Below, one piece after another: positions 1,338-10,042 of a stretch of DNA of 64,000 nt (the stretch's first letter is position 1; each line of letters begins with the position of its first letter). The notes under the pieces were generated by a model. That model searched no databases. It was not told where the DNA came from and worked only from the letters and a program-made list of their open reading frames with translations. The DNA is from Catellatospora sichuanensis (GTDB taxonomy: Bacteria; Actinomycetota; Actinomycetes; Mycobacteriales; Micromonosporaceae): positions 248,001-312,000 of the forward strand of contig NZ_VIQO01000001.1 in the NCBI RefSeq assembly GCF_007483665.1. The letters run 5' to 3'. Made by a program: the position numbers and the translations under genes.

Positions 1338-2297
1338 ATGAGCAACGTTGAGACGGCGCCCGTCGAGACCGCCTGCGGGCACGAGCCGGTGCCGGACGGG
1401 CCGACCCACGAGCTGCTCCCCGGGCGCGAGGTCGTGCTCGGCGGCCCGCGCGGCATGACGGTCAGCCGTACGCTGCCGCACAAGGACCGCCGCATGGTCG
1501 GCGCGTGGTGCTTCGTCGACCAGTACGGCCCCGCCGACCACGACATGCGCGTCGCGCCCCACCCGCACACCGGGCTGCAGACCGTCACCTGGCTCGTCGA
1601 GGGCGAGGTGCTGCACCGTGACAGCGTTGGCAGCAAGGCTCTCGTCCGCCCTGGTCAACTCAACCTGATGACCGCGGGGCACGGCATCTCGCACTCCGAG
1701 GAGTCGCCCGTCCCGCGCACCGAACCGCTGCACGGCGTGCAGCTGTGGGTCGCGCTGCCCGACGCGGCCCGGTCGGTCGCCCCGGCCTTCGAGCACCACG
1801 CCGACCTGCCCGTCGTCGAGCGGCCCGGCGTCACCGTGACGGTGATCATGGGCGAGCTGGCGGGTGCGGTGTCGCCCGCGACCGCGTACACCCCGCTGGT
1901 CGGCGCGGAAGCCGCACTGGCCGCGGACGTGCAGGTCACGCTGCCGCTGCGCAGCGATTTCGAGTACGCCGCGCTGGTGCTCGACGGCGCGGCGCACGTC
2001 GACGGCGTACCGCTGGAGCCCGGGACCCTGCTCTACCTCGGCCGCGAGCGGACGGCGCTCGAGCTGACCACGGCCGTACCGGCGCGGGTGCTGCTGCTCG
2101 GCGGCGAGCCGTTCGCGGAGGAGATCGTGATGTGGTGGAACTTCGTCGGGCGCGGCCACGACGACGTCGCCGCCGCGCGCGAGCAGTGGATGGCGGCCGA
2201 CCCGCGCTTCGGCGAGGTCACCGGCTACGACGGCGCTCCGCTGCCCGCCCCCATGCTGCCGAACGCCCAGCTCAAGCCCCGAGGCCGCCGCCGCTGA
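1338..2297 (+). CDS. Pirin family protein
   Basis: A 319-residue bicupin of the pirin family. Pirins bind a metal; some have quercetin 2,3-dioxygenase activity and others act as regulators. The N-terminal cupin carries the pirin signature: H75 and H77 in APHPHTGLQTVTWLVEGEV, and H119 and E121 in MTAGHGISHSEE, matching the 3-His/1-Glu metal site. The C-terminal cupin ends with the family motif EEIVMWWNFVGR. The start is the first ATG after a long intergenic region. The physiological substrate is unknown. The gene stands alone, convergent with the RIO-like kinase gene. Confidence 0.93.
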   Translation: MSNVETAPVETACGHEPVPDGPTHELLPGREVVLGGPRGMTVSRTLPHKDRRMVGAWCFVDQYGPADHDMRVAPHPHTGLQTVTWLVEGEVLHRDSVGSKALVRPGQLNLMTAGHGISHSEESPVPRTEPLHGVQLWVALPDAARSVAPAFEHHADLPVVERPGVTVTVIMGELAGAVSPATAYTPLVGAEAALAADVQVTLPLRSDFEYAALVLDGAAHVDGVPLEPGTLLYLGRERTALELTTAVPARVLLLGGEPFAEEIVMWWNFVGRGHDDVAAAREQWMAADPRFGEVTGYDGAPLPAPMLPNAQLKPRGRRR

Positions 2298-2350
2298 CGG
2301 CCCGACCCGGCCGGGCCGCCGCCCAGGCGGCGGACCGCAGTCGCATACCA

Positions 2351-2425
2351 GATCCGCCGACCTGCCTGGCAAACGGGCGTATCCTGCCCGCTCTTCCGCC
2401 CGGTTGCCAGGCAAGTGCAACGATC
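2351..2425. repeat. Intergenic palindromic repeat, family C copy 1
   Basis: Arms at 2351-2379 and 2397-2425 share the core CTGCCTGGCAA-CGGGCG with a few mismatches. It is related to the elements at 17651-17727 and 54976-55050. It sits between the convergent pirin and RIO-like genes, where it could also act as a two-way terminator. Confidence 0.7.
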
Positions 2426-2437
2426 ATGGCCGGCGCG

Positions 2438-3367
2438 TCAGGTGCGCATGCCGGCTTCGGCCATCAGTTCGGCCGTGAGGGCCGCTTCGTCCAACCCGGA
2501 CAGGCCGCGGGCGGTGAACCAGGTCGCCACGTTGTGCACGTCGCGGGCCAGGAAGCGTTTGCCCTGCGGGTTGGCCACCACGTCCACGATCTGCGGCAGG
2601 TCGATGATGACCAGCCGCCCCTCGTGCACGAGGATGTTGTACGGCGACAGGTCGCCGTGCGCGTACCCGGCCCGGGCCAGCACCGTCAGGCCCAGCATCA
2701 GCTGCGCCCACAGGTCGGCCAGCCCCGCCTCGTCGGTGCGCACCTGTGCCAGCCGCGGCGCGGCGGTGCCGTCGGGCGCGCCGATGAACTCCTGCAGCAC
2801 CTCGGTGCCCAGGATCTGCACCGGGTACGGCGTGAACGGCGCGACGTCCAGCTGCCGGGCGATCTCCCAGAGCCGCGCCAGCGCGCCGAATTCGGCCGCC
2901 GCCCACTGCCCGGCGATGGCCTCCTTGCCGAACGCGCTGCGGTTGGCCATGGCCCGGTTGACCCGGGACTCCTTGTCCCGGCGACCCTCGAGGTAGCCCG
3001 CGTCGCGGTGGAACATGCGGTGGTCGTGGCTGCGGTAGCGCTTGGCCGCCAGCAGGCAGCCGCGTTCGGTGCCGGGCACGTGGCGGTGGAGCAGGAAGAC
3101 GTCGGCCTCCTTGCCGGTCTTCAGCACTCCGCGTTCCACGTCGACCGCGGCCAGCTCGGTGACGAGCCAGTCGGGGTGGGGCAACGGCCCGCGCTCGGTG
3201 GGGGTCGACAGGTCCCAGGTGGACCAGCGGTCACCGAATTCGGGCTTGTCGGGGGTTTCGTCCCACTCGACTTCCCCGGCGTACGACTTCTCGAAGGTCA
3301 GTTCGTCGTCGTCGAAACGGTTCCGGCGGTTGACGCGGCCGGCGCGCGGAAAGTCGTGCTCTCGCAC
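2438..3367 (-). CDS. RIO1-like atypical serine/threonine protein kinase
   Basis: A 309-residue protein of the bacterial RIO kinase branch. Visible kinase elements are the phosphate-loop region LKTGKEADVFLL (82-93), the ATP-anchoring lysine K109 in LLAAKRY, the catalytic loop HGDLSPYNILV (237-247) and the metal-binding IIDLPQ (254-259). The conserved YRSHDHRMF motif typical of RIO1 is at 111-119. Archaeal and eukaryotic RIO kinases act in small-subunit maturation; the bacterial role is not established. The start is a GTG with GAGGAG about 9 nt upstream. It is monocistronic on the minus strand. Confidence 0.88.
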   Translation of the reverse strand: MREHDFPRAGRVNRRNRFDDDELTFEKSYAGEVEWDETPDKPEFGDRWSTWDLSTPTERGPLPHPDWLVTELAAVDVERGVLKTGKEADVFLLHRHVPGTERGCLLAAKRYRSHDHRMFHRDAGYLEGRRDKESRVNRAMANRSAFGKEAIAGQWAAAEFGALARLWEIARQLDVAPFTPYPVQILGTEVLQEFIGAPDGTAAPRLAQVRTDEAGLADLWAQLMLGLTVLARAGYAHGDLSPYNILVHEGRLVIIDLPQIVDVVANPQGKRFLARDVHNVATWFTARGLSGLDEAALTAELMAEAGMRT

Positions 3368-3574
3368 TGGAAAAGCTCCTCGGTCGGAGAGAAGAAGTAA
3401 GAGGCGAAATGCGCGCAGCGCACAGCGACGGCAACCATTCGGCTCAACCCCCTTCTCTCCCGACCCGGATCAGTTTCCGGGATCTCGCACAACGCCGACG
3501 AGTCTTCCCTCGACCCCCGACCCCTGTCAACCGGTTTTCCCCGGCGACCCGCGTCACACCCGCCCACACGAAAC

Positions 3575-3629
3575 GATCATGAAGTTATGGCCCCGACACA
3601 CCGTCGAACCGTGCCATAAGTTCATGATC
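3575..3629. repeat. Intergenic hairpin (family D, single copy here)
   Basis: Arms GATCATGAAGTTATGGC (3575-3591) and GCCATAAGTTCATGATC (3613-3629) pair with one mismatch around a 21-nt loop. The base composition is far more AT-rich than the surroundings. It lies upstream of the RIO-like gene and just past the 3' end of the HAD gene, so it may terminate the HAD transcript. The remaining sequence between 3368 and 3574 shows nothing else I can identify. Confidence 0.65.
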
Positions 3630-3645
3630 AGCCCAAAAAGGCGGG

Positions 3646-4314
3646 TCAGCGGGCCATGCGGTGGGGTGGGTCGGCGGCGAGGACGGCGGCCACGGCTTGG
3701 ATGGCGCCCTCGGCGACGCGGGTGGGGCCGAAGCGGCGCTCGGTCCACTGGCGGCCGCGGTGGATCCAGACGCTGGGGATGCCGATCGTGGTCGCCCCGC
3801 CGATGTCGGCTTCAGGGCTGTCGCCGATCAGCCAGGCGCCGCGCAGCCGCATCCGGGCCCGTTCCGCGGCGATCTCGAAGATGCGCGGGTTGGGCTTGCG
3901 GCAGTCGACCTCCTGCGAGACCACCCAGTCGGCCACGAACCGGTCCAGGCCGGTACGCCGGATCTTGGCTTCCTGCTGGCGGGTCTCGCCGTTGGTGACT
4001 ATCACCGGGACCCAGCCGGCCTCCGCGGCGATACGCAGCGCGGCGCCCACCATGGGATCCAGCCGGGTGGCCTCGATCTGCCCCTCGTGCAACTCCTCCA
4101 CCAGGTCGATGACGGAATTGCGCAGTCGATACCGGTCACGGATCGCGTCGGCCAGATCCCAGCGCGAGGTCAGGCCGTCCGCGTCGGCGTCCACCAGCCA
4201 GTCGATGTCGTACGGCGGGGCGCTGATCTCGGACAGGAACCGAGTACCCCACATCCGGAAGGCGCCCTCGCGGTCGACCAGTGTGTTGTCGAGGTCCAAC
4301 AGCAACAGAGGCAC
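3646..4314 (-). CDS. HAD family hydrolase
   Basis: A 222-residue haloacid dehalogenase superfamily phosphatase. Motif I is LLLDLDNTLVD with nucleophile D7 and acid D9. Motif II is VIVTNGE. The motif III lysine is in CRKPNPRIF, and motif IV is WLIGDSPEADIGGA. A helical cap lies between motifs I and II. The substrate is not predictable. The start is a GTG preceded by AAGGTG. It lies 83 bp downstream of the DUF2637 gene on the same strand and may be cotranscribed with it. Confidence 0.9.
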   Translation of the reverse strand: MPLLLLDLDNTLVDREGAFRMWGTRFLSEISAPPYDIDWLVDADADGLTSRWDLADAIRDRYRLRNSVIDLVEELHEGQIEATRLDPMVGAALRIAAEAGWVPVIVTNGETRQQEAKIRRTGLDRFVADWVVSQEVDCRKPNPRIFEIAAERARMRLRGAWLIGDSPEADIGGATTIGIPSVWIHRGRQWTERRFGPTRVAEGAIQAVAAVLAADPPHRMAR

Positions 4315-4397
4315 GCGGGCACCTTACGTGACTCAGGACACGCTGGTGAAGCCCCCCTTTGTGCGGGAAACCTCGCGGAAACGAAATCGATGCCTGC

Positions 4398-5786
4398 TCA
4401 CACCAGATCCGCGTCCACGCCGAAGGTGTCCCGCTGCCGAACTGCCTTGATCTGGTTCTTGGCCCAGTTCTCGCTCGGCGTGCGCCCGTACTCCCGGGCC
4501 GTCCACTCGCGGACGAAAGCCGTGCTGACCTGCTCGCCGCGTGCCAGCGCCTCGCCGATCATCCGCTGGACCGGCTCCTGGAGGTGGTTGAGCATGCCGC
4601 GCGAGGTGATCTCACTGGTGTCCGACAGCGGCCGGTGGCCCATCGGCTCCCGCCCGGTCGGGGCGCTCAGCACCGACTCCAGGGTGGCCCGCAGATCCCG
4701 GCCCAGGATCGTGCCCCGCTCGTCACGCTCGGGAACGAGGTCCTGGGACACCGCGGCGGGCTCCGGCTGGAGGGGGGCCGGCGGAGGCTCGGGGACGGCT
4801 TCCGGCTGCGGCGTCGGCTGGTACACCGACTGCGGCGGGTATGGCTGGTGCCCGTTCGACTGGTGCCCGTTCTGGTGGTGCGGCATGGACTGGTGCGGCA
4901 TGGGCTGGTGGGACACCTGCGGCACGGCGCCCGGCGCCGCTCCTGGACGCCAGCTAGCCGTGCGGGCCCGGCGCACCTCCGCGCGGGCGTGCACCTCGAC
5001 CAGCTTGGCCTGCTGCTCCTCGCGGACCAGCTGCGCGCCGTACAGGCGGCGCTGGCGTTTGGCCTCGCGGGTGTCCTCCAGGTGCGTCAGCGCGTTGCGC
5101 ACGCTGGGCCGCAGTCCCTCCGCGGGCGGGTGCACGATCCAGGCCCGCCGGGCCGAGAACGTGGAGATCGGCGCGTAGAGCCAGCGCTGGCCGAAGCGCG
5201 GGTAGCGGGTCTTGAGCGCCACGTCGTCGTCGTAGCCGGCCATGAACTGGTCGAGCAGCTCGTGGAACATCGCCATGCCCGCGAACGACAGGAACGCCAG
5301 GTAGAGGCCCGCCCAGATGGACCACTTGTCGCGGCCGTGCACGAAGTTCAGGGTCGCCGAGACGGTCGCGGCGGCGAGCACGATCTTGTACGCCCGGCCG
5401 GGGTGCCGCCCGCGCTTGACCGCCACGAACGCCCACGCGCCGAAGGAGATGCTGATGCCGTCGAGGCTCAGCGGGACCAGGATGTTGGTCCAGTGATTCC
5501 AGCCCATGACGTCGTTGGCGAAACCGGTGAGGCCGATGAACGACACGCCCATCACGGCGAGCCAGACCAGCAGCGTCGGGATCAGCGCGGCCAGGAACAG
5601 GCCGGTGTCCTTGGTCTTCTCCGCGCGGGTGGCGTACGCCCCCGGGTTGGCCAGCCGGATGCCCCGCCGCCGCCCGGCCGAGCGCGCCAGCGGCACACCG
5701 ATCAGCAGGGAGATCGTCAGGATCGACACCACCAGCACCATCACCCACGTATCCACGTAGGTCGTGGTCAACAGCTCCAGGTCCAC
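4398..5786 (-). CDS. DUF2637-type multi-pass membrane protein
   Basis: A 462-residue protein. The N-terminal half has about five membrane segments (roughly 14-34, 62-83, 98-120, 130-150, 155-180), with text resembling DUF2637 (LSLDGISISFGAWAFVAVKRGR). DUF2637 proteins are frequent on actinobacterial plasmids and integrative elements. The C-terminal half is cytoplasmic: a basic/coiled stretch, then a Pro/Gln/His-rich linker with MPHQSMPHHQNGHQ-like repeats, and a final domain containing WTAREYGRTPSENWAKNQIKA that could be a DNA-binding fold. The start is a GTG after GGAGG. The function is unknown. No transfer genes are nearby. Confidence 0.75.
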   Translation of the reverse strand: MDLELLTTTYVDTWVMVLVVSILTISLLIGVPLARSAGRRRGIRLANPGAYATRAEKTKDTGLFLAALIPTLLVWLAVMGVSFIGLTGFANDVMGWNHWTNILVPLSLDGISISFGAWAFVAVKRGRHPGRAYKIVLAAATVSATLNFVHGRDKWSIWAGLYLAFLSFAGMAMFHELLDQFMAGYDDDVALKTRYPRFGQRWLYAPISTFSARRAWIVHPPAEGLRPSVRNALTHLEDTREAKRQRRLYGAQLVREEQQAKLVEVHARAEVRRARTASWRPGAAPGAVPQVSHQPMPHQSMPHHQNGHQSNGHQPYPPQSVYQPTPQPEAVPEPPPAPLQPEPAAVSQDLVPERDERGTILGRDLRATLESVLSAPTGREPMGHRPLSDTSEITSRGMLNHLQEPVQRMIGEALARGEQVSTAFVREWTAREYGRTPSENWAKNQIKAVRQRDTFGVDADLV

Positions 5787-5958: not shown

Positions 5959-5994
5959 ATTGCATGTGTGTCGCCGACCTGCGAAGATCGGCAT

Positions 5995-6567
5995 GTGCCC
6001 AGGGTGAGTCAGGATCAGCTCGATGCGCGCCGCCACGAGATCCTCGCCGCGGCCCGCGCCTGCTTCGCCCGGTATGGCTACGAGGGTGCCACGGTGCGCC
6101 GCCTGGAGCAGGCGACCGGGCTGTCGCGGGGCGCGATCTTCCACCACTTCCGCGACAAGGACTCGCTGTTCCTGGCCGTCGCCGAGGACGACGCGGTCGA
6201 GATGGCCGCCACCGTCGCCGCGAACGGCCTGGTGCAGGTGATGCGGGATCTGCTGGCCCACGCCCAGGACCCCGACGCGGCCGGCTGGCTCGGCACGCAG
6301 CTGGAGGTGGCCCGTCGGCTGCGCACCGACCCGGCGTTCGCCAAGCGGTGGGCGCAGCACAGCGAGGCGATCGACACCGCGACCCGCGAGCGCCTGCAAC
6401 GCCAGGCGGGCGCGGGCGTGCTGCGCGAGGACGTGCCGCTCGACGTGCTGACGCACTTTCTGGAGCTGGCGTACGACGGGCTGGTCAAGCGGCTGGCGAT
6501 GGGCGGCTCGGCCGACGACTTCGGCCCGGTGCTGGACCTGATCGAGGAGACCGTGCGCCGCCGCTGA
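5995..6567 (+). CDS. acnR: TetR-family aconitase repressor AcnR
   Basis: A 190-residue TetR regulator that closely resembles mycobacterial and corynebacterial AcnR, the repressor of aconitase. Recognisable features are the N-terminus MPRVSQDQLDARRHEIL, the HTH ATVRRLEQATGLSRGAIFHHF with the AcnR-typical FHHFRDKD, and the C-terminal segment ending DLIEETVRRR. I chose the GTG at 5995, giving MPRVS as in homologues; a GTG at 6004 is also possible, and the frame stays open further upstream. In related genera acnR directly follows acn. Here four genes on mixed strands separate them by 4.9 kb. The acnA promoter is outside the window. Confidence 0.88.
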   Translation: MPRVSQDQLDARRHEILAAARACFARYGYEGATVRRLEQATGLSRGAIFHHFRDKDSLFLAVAEDDAVEMAATVAANGLVQVMRDLLAHAQDPDAAGWLGTQLEVARRLRTDPAFAKRWAQHSEAIDTATRERLQRQAGAGVLREDVPLDVLTHFLELAYDGLVKRLAMGGSADDFGPVLDLIEETVRRR

Positions 6568-6911
6568 CCGGGCCGGTTGAATCGGATTTCCGGGCCTGAA
6601 CATGACGAAACCCGGGGGTACCGCGCGGGCGCGCGGGCCGGCTGGACAAACCGGACATTCCCCCGGGAATCGGGTGGCTCCCTTGGATTCGCCAGGGCCG
6701 CTGACACACGGCCTCGACGCTCCAGTCGAACCTTCAGGTATCGACAGAAGTGCAGTCGATGACAGCCGCCTAGCGGGCAGCCACCTCACGTGTCCTGTAG
6801 CTACTCAAAGCTGGACCACCTCCTTTCCCGTGTACCGCCGACATTAGTCACGAGATCCACGCATCGACAAGATATTTTCAAACGGGCATCCGGGCGCTAC
6901 AGTGCCGCCCC
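6568..6911. other. Intergenic region with a minus-strand Shine-Dalgarno and 12-codon ORF
   Basis: These 344 bases hold no long gene. On the minus strand a very strong ribosome-binding sequence, GGAAAGGAGGTGGTCC (6828-6813), is followed 10 nt after AGGAGG by TTG and a 12-codon frame (6808-6770) encoding MSSYRTREVAAR, then TAG. No minus-strand gene follows within the gap, because acnR lies antisense there. The right end (about 6840-6905) is AT-richer and probably carries the promoter of the plus-strand cassette starting at 6912. The left end (6600-6680) is GC-rich without a clear fold. Confidence 0.4.
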
Positions 6912-7016
6912 ATGGGCGCCCTCAAACCTTGGCATCTGCTCCTCGGCGGCACCGTCTGCTGCGCCACCGTGGTGGTGGTCGCACTGGTGCTGTTCCTGGT
7001 ACTACGTAAGAAATGA
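6912..7016 (+). CDS. 34-residue single-span membrane microprotein
   Basis: An ATG frame of 34 codons: the N-terminus MGALKPWHLLLGGTV, one hydrophobic span of about 22 residues (CCATVVVVALVLFLVL) and a basic C-terminus RKK. The stop overlaps the ATG of the dimethylargininase gene (ATGA), which indicates translational coupling. The first residues recall actinobacterial TatA proteins (GALKPWH), but the FG hinge and amphipathic helix are absent, so TatA function is unlikely. The function is unknown. It may be a membrane anchor or modulator for the cassette downstream. Confidence 0.6.
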   Translation: MGALKPWHLLLGGTVCCATVVVVALVLFLVLRKK

Positions 7017-7771
7017 GAACCGCCCTGGTCCGCGAGCCGAGTTCCCGGCTCGCCGACGGCATCGTCACCCACATCGGCCGCAGCGACATCGACCTGTCCC
7101 TGGCCCGCGCCCAGCACGTCGCGTACGCCGACGCGCTGGCCTCGGCCGGCTGGGAGGTCTACCCGGCGCCGGCCGCCGACGACTGCCCGGACTCGGTGTT
7201 CGTCGAGGACGCGGTGGTGGTCTGCGACGACCTCGCCGTGCTGACCCACCCCGGCGCCGCGGCCCGTCGTGGCGAGATCACCGGGGTCGAGCAGGCCGTG
7301 CTGGAACTGGGCCTGCGTACCGCGCGCATCGCGGAGCCGGGCACCCTGGAGGGCGGCGACGTGCTCCAGGTCGGCACGACCGTCTACGTCGGACGCGGCG
7401 GCCGCACCAACGCCGAGGGCATCCGGCAGTTGCGGGCGCTGCTCGCGCCGCTGGGGCGCACCGTCGTGCCGGTGCCGCTGGGCGAGGTGCTGCACCTGAA
7501 GTCCGCGGTGACCGCGCTGCCCGACGGCACCTTCCTGGCCCTGCCGCACCTGGTGCCGACCGGGCTGTTCCCCGCGGTGCGGCCGGTCGAGGAGGAGGGC
7601 GGCTGCCACGTGGTGCCGCTGGGCGGCGACCGGGTGCTGCTGGCCGCGTCCGCGCCGCGCACCGCGGAGCTGCTGGCGGACCTGGGCTACACGCCGGTCG
7701 TGGTCGACATCGGCGAGTTCGAGAAACTCGAGGGCTGCGTGACCTGCCTGAGCGTCCTGGTCTCCCGCTAG
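7013..7771 (+). CDS. ddaH: Dimethylargininase (DDAH)
   Basis: A 252-residue enzyme of the guanidino-group-modifying superfamily that hydrolyses N-omega-methylated arginines to citrulline and methylamines. The catalytic set is visible: D66 in SVFVEDAVVV, E113 in TLEGGDVLQV, H161 in EVLHLKSAV and nucleophile C245 in EGCVTCLSVL. Length and residue positions match Pseudomonas DDAH. The start overlaps the stop of the 34-residue microprotein. The membrane protein of the MNIO cassette begins 47 bp downstream, so co-transcription is likely. A metabolic link to that cassette is not known. Confidence 0.92.
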   Translation: MRTALVREPSSRLADGIVTHIGRSDIDLSLARAQHVAYADALASAGWEVYPAPAADDCPDSVFVEDAVVVCDDLAVLTHPGAAARRGEITGVEQAVLELGLRTARIAEPGTLEGGDVLQVGTTVYVGRGGRTNAEGIRQLRALLAPLGRTVVPVPLGEVLHLKSAVTALPDGTFLALPHLVPTGLFPAVRPVEEEGGCHVVPLGGDRVLLAASAPRTAELLADLGYTPVVVDIGEFEKLEGCVTCLSVLVSR

Positions 7772-7818
7772 TGGCGGTGATGGTCCATCATGAGGGCTCC
7801 CTCGTCGAAGGAGCTCCC

Positions 7819-8742
7819 GTGGCGGACACCTGGGGCATCCCTGGCCCCACCTTCCTGATGCTGTTCGCGGTCGCCGCGGTCGTCGTGCTGGTGGGCACGC
7901 TCATCCACCGGTCCCGCCTGTTCGCCGGCCCCGCCCAGGTCCGCGTGGACCAGCTGTCGCCCCAGCACACCGCGTACCTCAACGGCGGCGCGGCGCTGGC
8001 GGTGTACTCGTCGCTGGCCTTCCTGCGCCAGCACCACGTCGCCGCGGCCGACGACGCCGGCCGGCTCACCCGCACCGGTGGGCTGCCCCCGGGCGCGACC
8101 CCGCTGGACGCCGCGGTGCTGCACGCCGTGGGCAACGGCCTGCGCGCCAACCAGCTGCACACGGACCGCTCGGTGGCCGAGGCGCTGTCCGCGATCGGCG
8201 AGGAGCTGCGCCGCGGCGGCCTCACCGTCGGCCCCGACCTGCTGGCCCGCGCCCGGCGCGGCCCGCTGCTGCTGCTGGCCCTGTTCGTGCTGGCCGTGGT
8301 CCGGATCATCGCCGGGGTGGGCAACGACCGCCCGGTCATGTTCCTGGTGCTGGCGGCCATCCCGGTCGGCATCGTCGGCCTGGTGTTGTTCCTGCGCAAA
8401 CCGCGGCGCACCAAGGCCGCCGAACGCGCGCTGCTGCAGGCCAAGCGCCACTTCAACCATTTGCGACCGGCATCCCGGCCGGCCTGGGACACGTACGGAC
8501 CGGCACAGACCGCGCTGGCCGTCGGCCTGTTCGGCACCGCCGTGCTGTGGGCCGCCGACCCGGCCTTCGCCGGTGAGACCGGCGTCCCGGAACGCGACGC
8601 CGGCGGCGCCTACGGTCCCTTCGTCGACGACGTCGGCGGCGGATCGAGCGGCGGCGACAGCGGCGGCGGCTCGTCGTGCAGCAGCGGCTCCTCGTGCGGC
8701 GGCGGGGGTGGCTGCGGCGGCGGAGGCGGGTGCGGCGGATGA
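7819..8742 (+). CDS. TIGR04222-type membrane protein with Gly/Cys-rich C-terminal tail
   Basis: A 307-residue protein from GTG 7819, chosen because AAGGAG lies 5-6 nt upstream; an in-frame ATG at 7780 has no clear site. There is one N-terminal membrane span (about 11-32), a soluble middle beginning YLNGGAALAVYSSLAFLRQ, and two further spans around LLLALFVLAVVRIIAGV and VLAAIPVGIVGLVLFL. The last 35 residues are almost only Gly, Ser and Cys, with four cysteines in SSCSSGSSCGGGGGCGGGGG. The layout matches TIGR04222 proteins, which commonly sit next to DUF692 genes in actinobacteria. The stop overlaps the MNIO start (ATGA). I infer that the Cys tail could be the substrate of that enzyme; this is unproven. 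Confidence 0.75.
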   Translation: MADTWGIPGPTFLMLFAVAAVVVLVGTLIHRSRLFAGPAQVRVDQLSPQHTAYLNGGAALAVYSSLAFLRQHHVAAADDAGRLTRTGGLPPGATPLDAAVLHAVGNGLRANQLHTDRSVAEALSAIGEELRRGGLTVGPDLLARARRGPLLLLALFVLAVVRIIAGVGNDRPVMFLVLAAIPVGIVGLVLFLRKPRRTKAAERALLQAKRHFNHLRPASRPAWDTYGPAQTALAVGLFGTAVLWAADPAFAGETGVPERDAGGAYGPFVDDVGGGSSGGDSGGGSSCSSGSSCGGGGGCGGGGGCGG

Positions 8743-9578
8743 CCCCGCTGGCCGGACGGGGCGTCGGCATCGGCTGGCGCCCCGAGATCTCCGGCTTCGT
8801 CGCCGAGCTGCCCGGCCTGCGTTTCGTCGAGGTCGTCGCCGAATCGCTGCCGCACTCCGGCGAACCGCCCGAGGCGCTGGCCCGGCTGCTCGCCGCAGGG
8901 GTGGCGGTGGTGCCGCACGGCGTCAAACTGTCCCTCGGCGGAGCCGAGCCGGTCGACCCGCACCGGGTGGAGCACCTGGCCCAGGCCGCGCGGGCCGTCA
9001 ACGCACCGCTGGTCAGCGAGCACATCGCGTACGTGCGGGCCGGTGGCGTCGAGGCCGGTCACCTGCTGCCGCTGCCACGCAGCCGGGAGGCCGTCGACGC
9101 GGTGGTCGCCAACGTGGCACGGACCACCGCCGAGCTTGACGTGCCGCTGGCGCTGGAGCCCATCGCGGCGCTGTTCGAGTGGCCCGACGACGAGCTGACC
9201 GAGGCCGAGTTCCTCACCGAGATCCTGGAACGCACCGACGCGCTGCTGCTGCTCGACATCGCCAACGTGTACGCCAACGCGCTCAACCGCGGCGAGGACC
9301 CGATGGACCTGCTCAACCGGCTCCCGCTGGAGCGCATGGCGTACGTCCACGTCGCCGGCGGCCGGATCCACGGGGGCCGCTATCACGACACGCACACCGA
9401 CCCGGTGCCCGGCGAGGTCCTGGAGCTGCTGGGCGAGCTGTGCGCGCGGCAGCGCCCGCCCGCGATCCTGCTGGAGCGCGACGGGCACTACCCGCCGGCC
9501 GCGTCGCTGCGCGCCGAGCTGGACGCCCTGTCCGCCGCCACCGGCTACCCCGTGATCACGGCAGCGCCGGTCACATGA
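8739..9578 (+). CDS. DUF692 family enzyme (MNIO: multinuclear non-haem iron oxidative enzyme)
   Basis: A 279-residue TIM-barrel protein of the DUF692 family. Characterised relatives (MbnB, TglH) use two or three iron ions to remodel cysteines in ribosomal peptides. Family landmarks are present: VPHGVKLSLGG (H60), VSEHIAYV (S93-H95), ALEPIAALFEW (E140), LLLDIANVYANALNRG (D173), YVHVAGG (H204), HDTHTDPV (216-223) and LLERDGHYP (E246). Compared with the usual motifs, LEN reads LEP, D-x-NN reads DIAN and HLAGH reads HVAGG, so some metal ligands may be altered. The start overlaps the preceding stop, and its own stop overlaps the next start. Confidence 0.85.
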   Translation: MTPLAGRGVGIGWRPEISGFVAELPGLRFVEVVAESLPHSGEPPEALARLLAAGVAVVPHGVKLSLGGAEPVDPHRVEHLAQAARAVNAPLVSEHIAYVRAGGVEAGHLLPLPRSREAVDAVVANVARTTAELDVPLALEPIAALFEWPDDELTEAEFLTEILERTDALLLLDIANVYANALNRGEDPMDLLNRLPLERMAYVHVAGGRIHGGRYHDTHTDPVPGEVLELLGELCARQRPPAILLERDGHYPPAASLRAELDALSAATGYPVITAAPVT

Positions 9579-10042
9579 GCGGCGGCACCCTGACCGGCAG
9601 TGACCTGACCGGTGGTGGGCTCGCCCGGCGGCAGGAGGAACTCGTGCGCGCCCTGGTGGCCGGAGCCGCCATGCCGGCGGGCTTCGACGCCGGGGCGGTG
9701 GCCGCGACGCAGACCGCGCTGCTGCGCAAGCGGGCCGAGGACGTCGCGCGCACCTGGCCCCGCCTGGCCGCGTCAGCGGGCGCCGGACAGTGGCCGCGGG
9801 TGTTCTCCGCCTGGGCCGCCGGTCACGCGCCGTTGGGTTCCCTGCGCGACGGCTGGGACTACGCCCGGGCCAACCCGCCGGGCGACGCGGCGGCGACCCG
9901 CGAACTCGCCCTCCGTGAACTGCTCTGGACGTACGACGGCGAGAACTCCCCCCGCCCCCGCCGCGGCCCGGCCGCCCGCCTCCACAGTGGCGAGCTGCTG
10001 ATCCGCTGGCGCGGCCGCGCTCTCACCTTCCGCACCCGCTGA
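9575..10042 (+). CDS. Putative MNIO partner protein (DUF2063/HvfC-like)
   Basis: A 155-residue soluble protein coupled by an ATGA overlap to the DUF692 gene. The helical N-terminal part (RRQEELVRALVAGAAMPAGF, then QTALLRKRAEDVARTWPRL and SLRDGWDYAR) resembles the N-terminal domain of DUF2063/HvfC-type proteins, which accompany DUF692 enzymes and act as peptide-binding partners in MNIO pathways. The C-terminus is basic and short. It is shorter than typical DUF2063 proteins, so it may be a single-domain version. The assignment rests on the pattern of residues and on context. Confidence 0.6.
   Translation: MSGGTLTGSDLTGGGLARRQEELVRALVAGAAMPAGFDAGAVAATQTALLRKRAEDVARTWPRLAASAGAGQWPRVFSAWAAGHAPLGSLRDGWDYARANPPGDAAATRELALRELLWTYDGENSPRPRRGPAARLHSGELLIRWRGRALTFRTR

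Follow-up and report, generated by a model that had tools for sequence, protein, structure and literature searches.

The window, i.e., the whole stretch of 64,000 nucleotides analysed here, lies in the 9.45 Mb genome of Catellatospora sichuanensis (contig NZ_VIQO01000001.1, positions 248,001 to 312,000, forward strand). It was studied for a gene group built around a TIGR04222 membrane protein, an enzyme of the MNIO (DUF692) family and a small partner protein. These three genes are probably a maturation cassette for the cysteine-containing tail of the membrane protein. Five plus-strand open reading frames (ORFs) were found where the initial annotation had placed them, and its three ATGA overlaps were present at 7013-7016, 8739-8742, and 9575-9578.

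Gene content of the locus

The TIGR04222 protein gene was located at 7819..8742 (+) and matched its model with 129.7 bits (cut-off 43). An alternative start exists at 7780. However, a Shine-Dalgarno-like AAGGAG stands five bases ahead of the GTG at 7819, which suggests that the protein of 307 amino acids (aa) starts there and not at 7780. The translated ORF ends in a Gly/Ser/Cys tail with four cysteines and a CGG end, encoded at 8557..8739 (+), which is the proposed MNIO target. The MNIO gene follows at 8739..9578 (+) and was recognized by PF05114 with 266.9 bits (cut-off 25), so the earlier description of a four-cysteine tail directly 5' of a DUF692 gene was borne out. The last gene, at 9575..10042 (+), encodes the partner, a PME-type 2-like protein of 155 aa, in which helices are followed by three short strands. 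Neither the partner nor the microprotein described below matched an NCBIfam or Pfam family above cut-off. Because the TIGR04222-MNIO adjacency and the MNIO/partner overlap recur across the family, the gene arrangement is more than chance.

In the AlphaFold2 model and the hydropathy profile, three membrane helices of the TIGR04222 protein are clear and a fourth helix is weakly hydrophobic; a region of helix and strand lies between helices 1 and 2, and the tail is disordered. The mean predicted local distance difference test score (pLDDT) of the model was 86.7, and most of residues 264-307 were below 50. The partner model had a pLDDT of 92.5. Foldseek comparison of both models with PDB gave no match at E <=0.001.

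Linkage of TIGR04222 and MNIO genes in the family

Profile searches of 121 genomes of the window's family (the family survey) gave TIGR04222 matches in 93 genomes, MNIO in 82, and the dimethylargininase gene ddaH above cut-off in 28. Among the TIGR04222 matches listed, the 144 with at least 43.5 bits were parsed; those below, two of which exceed the cut-off only with neighbours in frame, were left out. An MNIO gene lay within 4 kb of 92 of the 144, always downstream and on the same strand. Conversely, a TIGR04222 gene adjoined 79 of 94 MNIO matches. The other 15 include two at contig starts (G116 and G019) and two pieces of one gene in G057.

Tail cysteines were counted without one protein whose 303-aa tail has an apparently broken frame (L117) and without the weaker (46.5 bits) of two matches in one L134 gene. 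At least two were present within the final 60 residues of 88 of 91 MNIO-linked proteins versus 18 of 51 unlinked ones (Fisher p 5e-16). All 18 unlinked proteins with such tails occur in MNIO-bearing genomes, as do 46 of all 51 unlinked proteins. By genome, 79 of the 85 with parsed TIGR04222 proteins had a Cys-tailed copy and all 79 had MNIO, which was found in two of the other six.

In 77 of the 78 TIGR04222 proteins nearest upstream of MNIO, the last 60 residues hold at least two cysteines, and 65 of the 78 end in CGG. The next residue was Gly for 272 of the 318 tail cysteines and Ser for 43, and the commonest spacing between cysteines was six residues.

The MNIO enzyme and its partner

Alignment of the window MNIO with 19 relatives showed 56-78% identity and, as invariant columns, His, Asp, Glu, and Asn residues that we take to be metal ligands. 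Its best NCBIfam model is BufB, at 184.2 bits and below the cut-off of 310. In 74 of 79 family loci, a partner homologue lies directly 3' of MNIO, and the two genes overlap by four bases in 63 of the 74.

The partner could be related to DUF2063. In hhalign comparison with seven DUF2063 proteins, all above the Pfam cut-off, E was 0.0026 with a probability of only 11.7%, and the reversed control gave E 0.53. Pfam DUF2063 matched two of 47 partner members (best E 0.018). Profile comparison with five proteins assumed from position to be PME-type 2 gave E 0.43, and no PDB sequence matched the partner profile. The link of the partner to DUF2063 is therefore suggestive only.

Named loci and other lineages

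A collection of named loci was searched with the MNIO alignment, since the domain-only TIGR04222 alignment was too little conserved to serve as query. The loci obtained are thus all MNIO-bearing, and the best 80 of at least 566 were used; the two surveys overlap, since the MNIOs of 15 of the 80 match one from the family survey with full identity across 200 aa. The partner was present in all 80, with the four-base overlap in 77, although the script favoured any start codon at that position. Nine loci have at most 63 bases of upstream sequence. In the remaining 71, with at least 1.1 kb, a TIGR04222 gene was found upstream in 70, and the sole exception was a Rhodococcus locus (L246). Of the 69 readable tails, i.e., without L189, in which the tail frame is broken, 68 have at least two cysteines, and that of L220 has one.

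Among 246 genomes sampled across the phylum, TIGR04222 was above cut-off in 10 and MNIO in 14. The same three genes, with a Cys tail, were seen in G179 and G343 of this sample. In g56, a genus of the same class as the window genome, probably Streptomyces, MNIO and partner form one ORF in all seven MNIO-bearing genomes; these ORFs were read out for L270 and L273. This fusion argues that the two proteins act jointly. A TIGR04222 gene lies downstream of MNIO in five of the seven g56 genomes, one TIGR04222 match per genome being considered.

Some further arrangements were observed in these loci. The g56 TIGR04222 proteins of L270 to L273, whose tails have no cysteine, share a C-x2-L-C motif (CTRLC or CARLC) near the N terminus. 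In three MNIO loci without TIGR04222 (L278, L279, and L281), PFLLE(I/T)V and CNC(Y/F)GSC motifs occur in a short ORF 5' of MNIO, and a partner-like ORF of 276-290 aa lies 3' of MNIO. These loci are perhaps a separate small type of ribosomally synthesized and post-translationally modified peptide (RiPP) locus. In a Tsukamurella plasmid of 33.5 kb (L317), an annotated TIGR04222-DUF692 pair stands beside mshC at 1534-4510, with seven cysteines at the tail end, and the 61-aa ORF after the pair resembles a shortened partner.

Proposed maturation cassette

It is reasonable to consider the three genes as a cassette in which MNIO and partner modify the tail cysteines of the TIGR04222 protein, and the product stays anchored in the membrane. 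We regard this reading as probable. It is drawn from the gene order, the overlaps, the near-universal partner, the MNIO-partner fusion, the co-distribution of tail cysteines with MNIO, and the modelled disorder of the tail. The partner would present the Gly/Ser/Cys tail to MNIO. The enzyme would then oxidatively modify the tail cysteines, mostly those with Gly next, and the modified product would remain on its membrane anchor. The tail would thus be the MNIO substrate. The chemistry on cysteine may be as in bufferins, by analogy, and presumably no cleavage follows the modification.

Should the tail be modified in place, integral membrane proteins would join small secreted peptides as targets of MNIO chemistry. 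A single MNIO could then act on several Cys-tailed proteins of the same genome. For reconstitution, good constructs are offered by the natural fusion of MNIO and partner and by the partner that nearly all loci of this subtype carry.

DUF2207 kinship and membrane topology

The TIGR04222 core was aligned with the C-terminal region of DUF2207 proteins over 177 columns, at an hhalign probability of 96.3% and E 1.5e-9 (99 versus 27 sequences, the 27 taken from 30 DUF2207_C loci). A smaller comparison with three DUF2207 sequences gave 53.4% and E 1.3e-4. PF20990 (DUF2207_C) itself scored 11.3 bits on the window protein, below the gathering score of 33 (E 0.27), and matched nine of 15 TIGR04222 relatives at E <=1, the best at 0.002. 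In the phylum sample, weak TIGR04222 matches coincide with DUF2207_C matches, e.g., in G153, G178, G189, and G222. By these profile comparisons, TIGR04222 and DUF2207_C have a homologous core. TIGR04222 thereby acquires an evolutionary origin, and whether its tail is inside or outside the cell becomes directly testable.

The published view is that the tail is outside the cell, and so it would be modified before translocation. Antoine et al. (2025) predicted a periplasmic location in their main text (PMC12452194). The charge of the tails rather favours this location: MNIO-linked tails are acidic, with a mean of 1.65 Lys plus Arg and 5.0 Asp plus Glu (n = 89). However, Cys-less unlinked tails average 5.0 and 4.6, respectively (n = 29). 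The fourth helix also speaks against it. In the AlphaFold2 model, this helix has 16 residues, and its mean hydropathy attains 1.6 in nine of 47 members, whereas helices 1-3 attain this value in 46, 44, and 47. Of 20 DUF2207 proteins, 16 stay below 1.6 in the segment that separates the last membrane helix from the Gly tail (median of the 20, 0.99); in the other four, the segment was started too early and takes in a membrane helix. The comparison with these 20 proteins, a subset of the 27, gave no significant homology for the fourth helix itself. On balance, an outside tail is given somewhat less than an even chance.

Because of the DUF2207 homology and the short, weakly hydrophobic fourth helix, the tail may instead be cytosolic and within reach of MNIO, contrary to the published assignment. 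More tentatively, a fuller account can be proposed. TIGR04222 proteins would be DUF2207-type proteins with a cytosolic tail, whose cysteines are made metal- or redox-active in the membrane by MNIO and partner. The 18 Cys-tailed copies encoded elsewhere would be modified in trans by the same enzyme. The system would then oxidatively mature resident membrane proteins and not make a peptide natural product.

Evidence against the cassette and alternative targets

Several observations weigh against modification of the tail by MNIO and partner. MNIO is common to begin with, being present in 81 of the 85 genomes with parsed TIGR04222 proteins. In a tree of 134 of the 144 TIGR04222 domains, which needs 12 changes of MNIO adjacency and nine of Cys state, phylogenetically independent pairs showed no association between adjacency and Cys tail (seven pairs on supported branches, median p 1). 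The Fisher p value given above is thus inflated by shared ancestry. The link of Cys tail and MNIO is clade-wide co-inheritance, and repeated correlated gain is not demonstrated. In g56, four of five TIGR04222 proteins near MNIO have no tail cysteine, L269 being the one with a Cys tail, and two MNIO-bearing genomes gave no TIGR04222 match. Five of the 79 family loci gave no partner. Of these, L033 lies at a contig edge; the others are L046, L085, L103, and L155, and among the MNIOs aligned, those of L046 and L085 diverge most (56-57%).

The initial annotation had suggested the tail as a possible MNIO target, and this is partly supported. At least two cysteines are found in nearly all linked family proteins and named tails, but in g56 most of the MNIO-adjacent proteins have none, the outcome that had been set to speak against such a target.

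The same g56 proteins and independent pairs would fit a cassette in which MNIO acts elsewhere on the TIGR04222 protein or on another substrate. The tail would then be a linker or a metal-binding segment of plain thiols, with cysteines by lineage only. However, every one of the 79 genomes with a Cys-tailed copy has MNIO, and the tail-bearing gene is directly 5' of the enzyme gene in most loci. Such another target is considered unlikely.

Release of the tail is less likely still. The fourth helix might be an internal signal peptide cut at a DPxFA motif, which would set free a Cys-rich peptide as in a classical RiPP. The window protein has WAADPAFA ahead of GETG. Signal peptidase accepts Ala, Gly, or Ser at position -3, and one of these stands there in 64 of the 80 linked proteins that carry the motif. 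In the other 16, however, the residue is Asp, Glu, Lys, Arg, Gln, Leu, or Thr, and the motif is missing in 11 of 91 linked proteins and present in 27 of 51 unlinked ones. Because most of the motifs are compatible with the peptidase, cleavage is retained as an improbable alternative.

Dimethylargininase gene, microprotein and upstream region

Two genes precede the TIGR04222 gene. The first encodes a membrane microprotein of 34 aa with one hydrophobic stretch (6912..7016, +) and shares an ATGA overlap with the second, ddaH (7013..7771, +), a dimethylargininase gene that matched NF045660 with 397 bits (cut-off 340). The overlap and the spacing of the genes suggest that both are probably co-transcribed with the cassette.

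By coordinates, ddaH adjoins TIGR04222 on the same strand in all eight genus genomes sampled, i.e., the window's own and seven others, with genus members G121-G123 left out, and in G042. The earlier placement of ddaH in the same unit thus holds as adjacency; since this is limited in the family survey to the eight genus genomes and G042, ddaH is not a core member. Of 28 ddaH matches above cut-off, 19 are located elsewhere, 13 of them in genomes with a separate TIGR04222-MNIO pair, so that a functional part of dimethylargininase in the system, which the constant adjacency in these nine genomes would favour, is very improbable.

The 34-aa ORF with its ATGA is present in seven of the eight genus loci, window included. 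In the eighth (L041), a divergent 39-aa form shares PWH, and no microprotein was apparent 5' of ddaH in G042. Its codon signal is weak, with 124/66/135 differences by codon position and 83 synonymous versus 242 non-synonymous nucleotide differences over all pairs. From this distribution, ddaH and the microprotein are a lineage-specific, stable local addition, with no sign of shared function.

Directly 5' of the microprotein ATG, at 6863-6905, six aligned genus loci share the blocks ATCGACAAGATATTTTC and CTACAGTGC without any change. These blocks might mark a cassette promoter and a leaderless start. Just 5' of the microprotein, an actinobacterial small RNA, Ms_IGR-5 (RF02471), was matched at 6600-6833 (-) with 91.2 bits. 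The start of this match overlaps another block invariant in six genus loci, which, as we take it, resembles the anti-Shine-Dalgarno end of 16S rRNA. This block was rejected as a cassette part since it overlaps the Ms_IGR-5 match on the opposite strand. Further upstream, a TetR-type regulator is encoded at 5992-6564 (+), with no NCBIfam equivalog above cut-off. Flanking genes were also rejected as functional partners. Among 18 loci compared, the 25 most shared flank pieces came from 12 Micromonosporaceae genera and none from the six other lineages, and vertical synteny is the simpler reading because the shared pieces are confined to Micromonosporaceae.

Comparison with known systems

The tail-as-substrate idea is plausible and already in print. 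According to the main text of Antoine et al. (2025), more than 3,500 TIGR04222 proteins have Ser/Gly/Cys tails, and MNIO modification of a subset was proposed (PMC12452194). The association with MNIO was described there as frequent and not constant. More than a quarter of TIGR04222 proteins have no C-proximal cysteine, TIGR04222 comes after MNIO in over 10% of cases, and a PME-type 2 partner is present in at least 10% of TIGR04222 clusters, many of which have none (PMC12452194). A literature search of titles and the starts of abstracts found no paper testing MNIO modification of TIGR04222 tails. The main text of Antoine et al. has neither "DUF2207" nor "dimethylarg", and its passages on fusion name no MNIO-partner fusion (PMC12452194).

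The window cassette resembles these clusters in its TIGR04222 and MNIO families, Cys/Gly/Ser C-terminal tail, and short partner, which may be of PME-type 2 (PMC12452194). The published PME-type 2 model B is a Micromonospora matsumotoense protein of 158 aa, the same length as the partner of the M. matsumotoense locus L181, a correspondence by length alone (PMC12452194). Unlike in the published clusters (at least 10%), the partner is near-universal in the window subtype (PMC12452194). Added here are this near-universal partner, the fused MNIO-partner ORF, the link to DUF2207 as origin, and the question of tail topology.

Bufferin loci, with a Buf1/Buf2 precursor, BufB MNIO, and DUF2063 partner, likewise place the partner after MNIO. 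Unlike them, the window cassette has no small secreted precursor, its MNIO is below the BufB cut-off, and its partner has no DUF2063 match. The window partner also appears too short for a full RiPP recognition element (RRE) domain.

DUF2207 proteins, of the E. coli YciQ type, have the homologous core and a Gly-rich tail in common with TIGR04222. The 27 sampled DUF2207 tails are Gly-rich and end in SW, SF, AW, AF, TF, AG, or AR, whereas the window protein has no DUF2207 match above cut-off and ends in CGG, which none of the sampled DUF2207 tails does.

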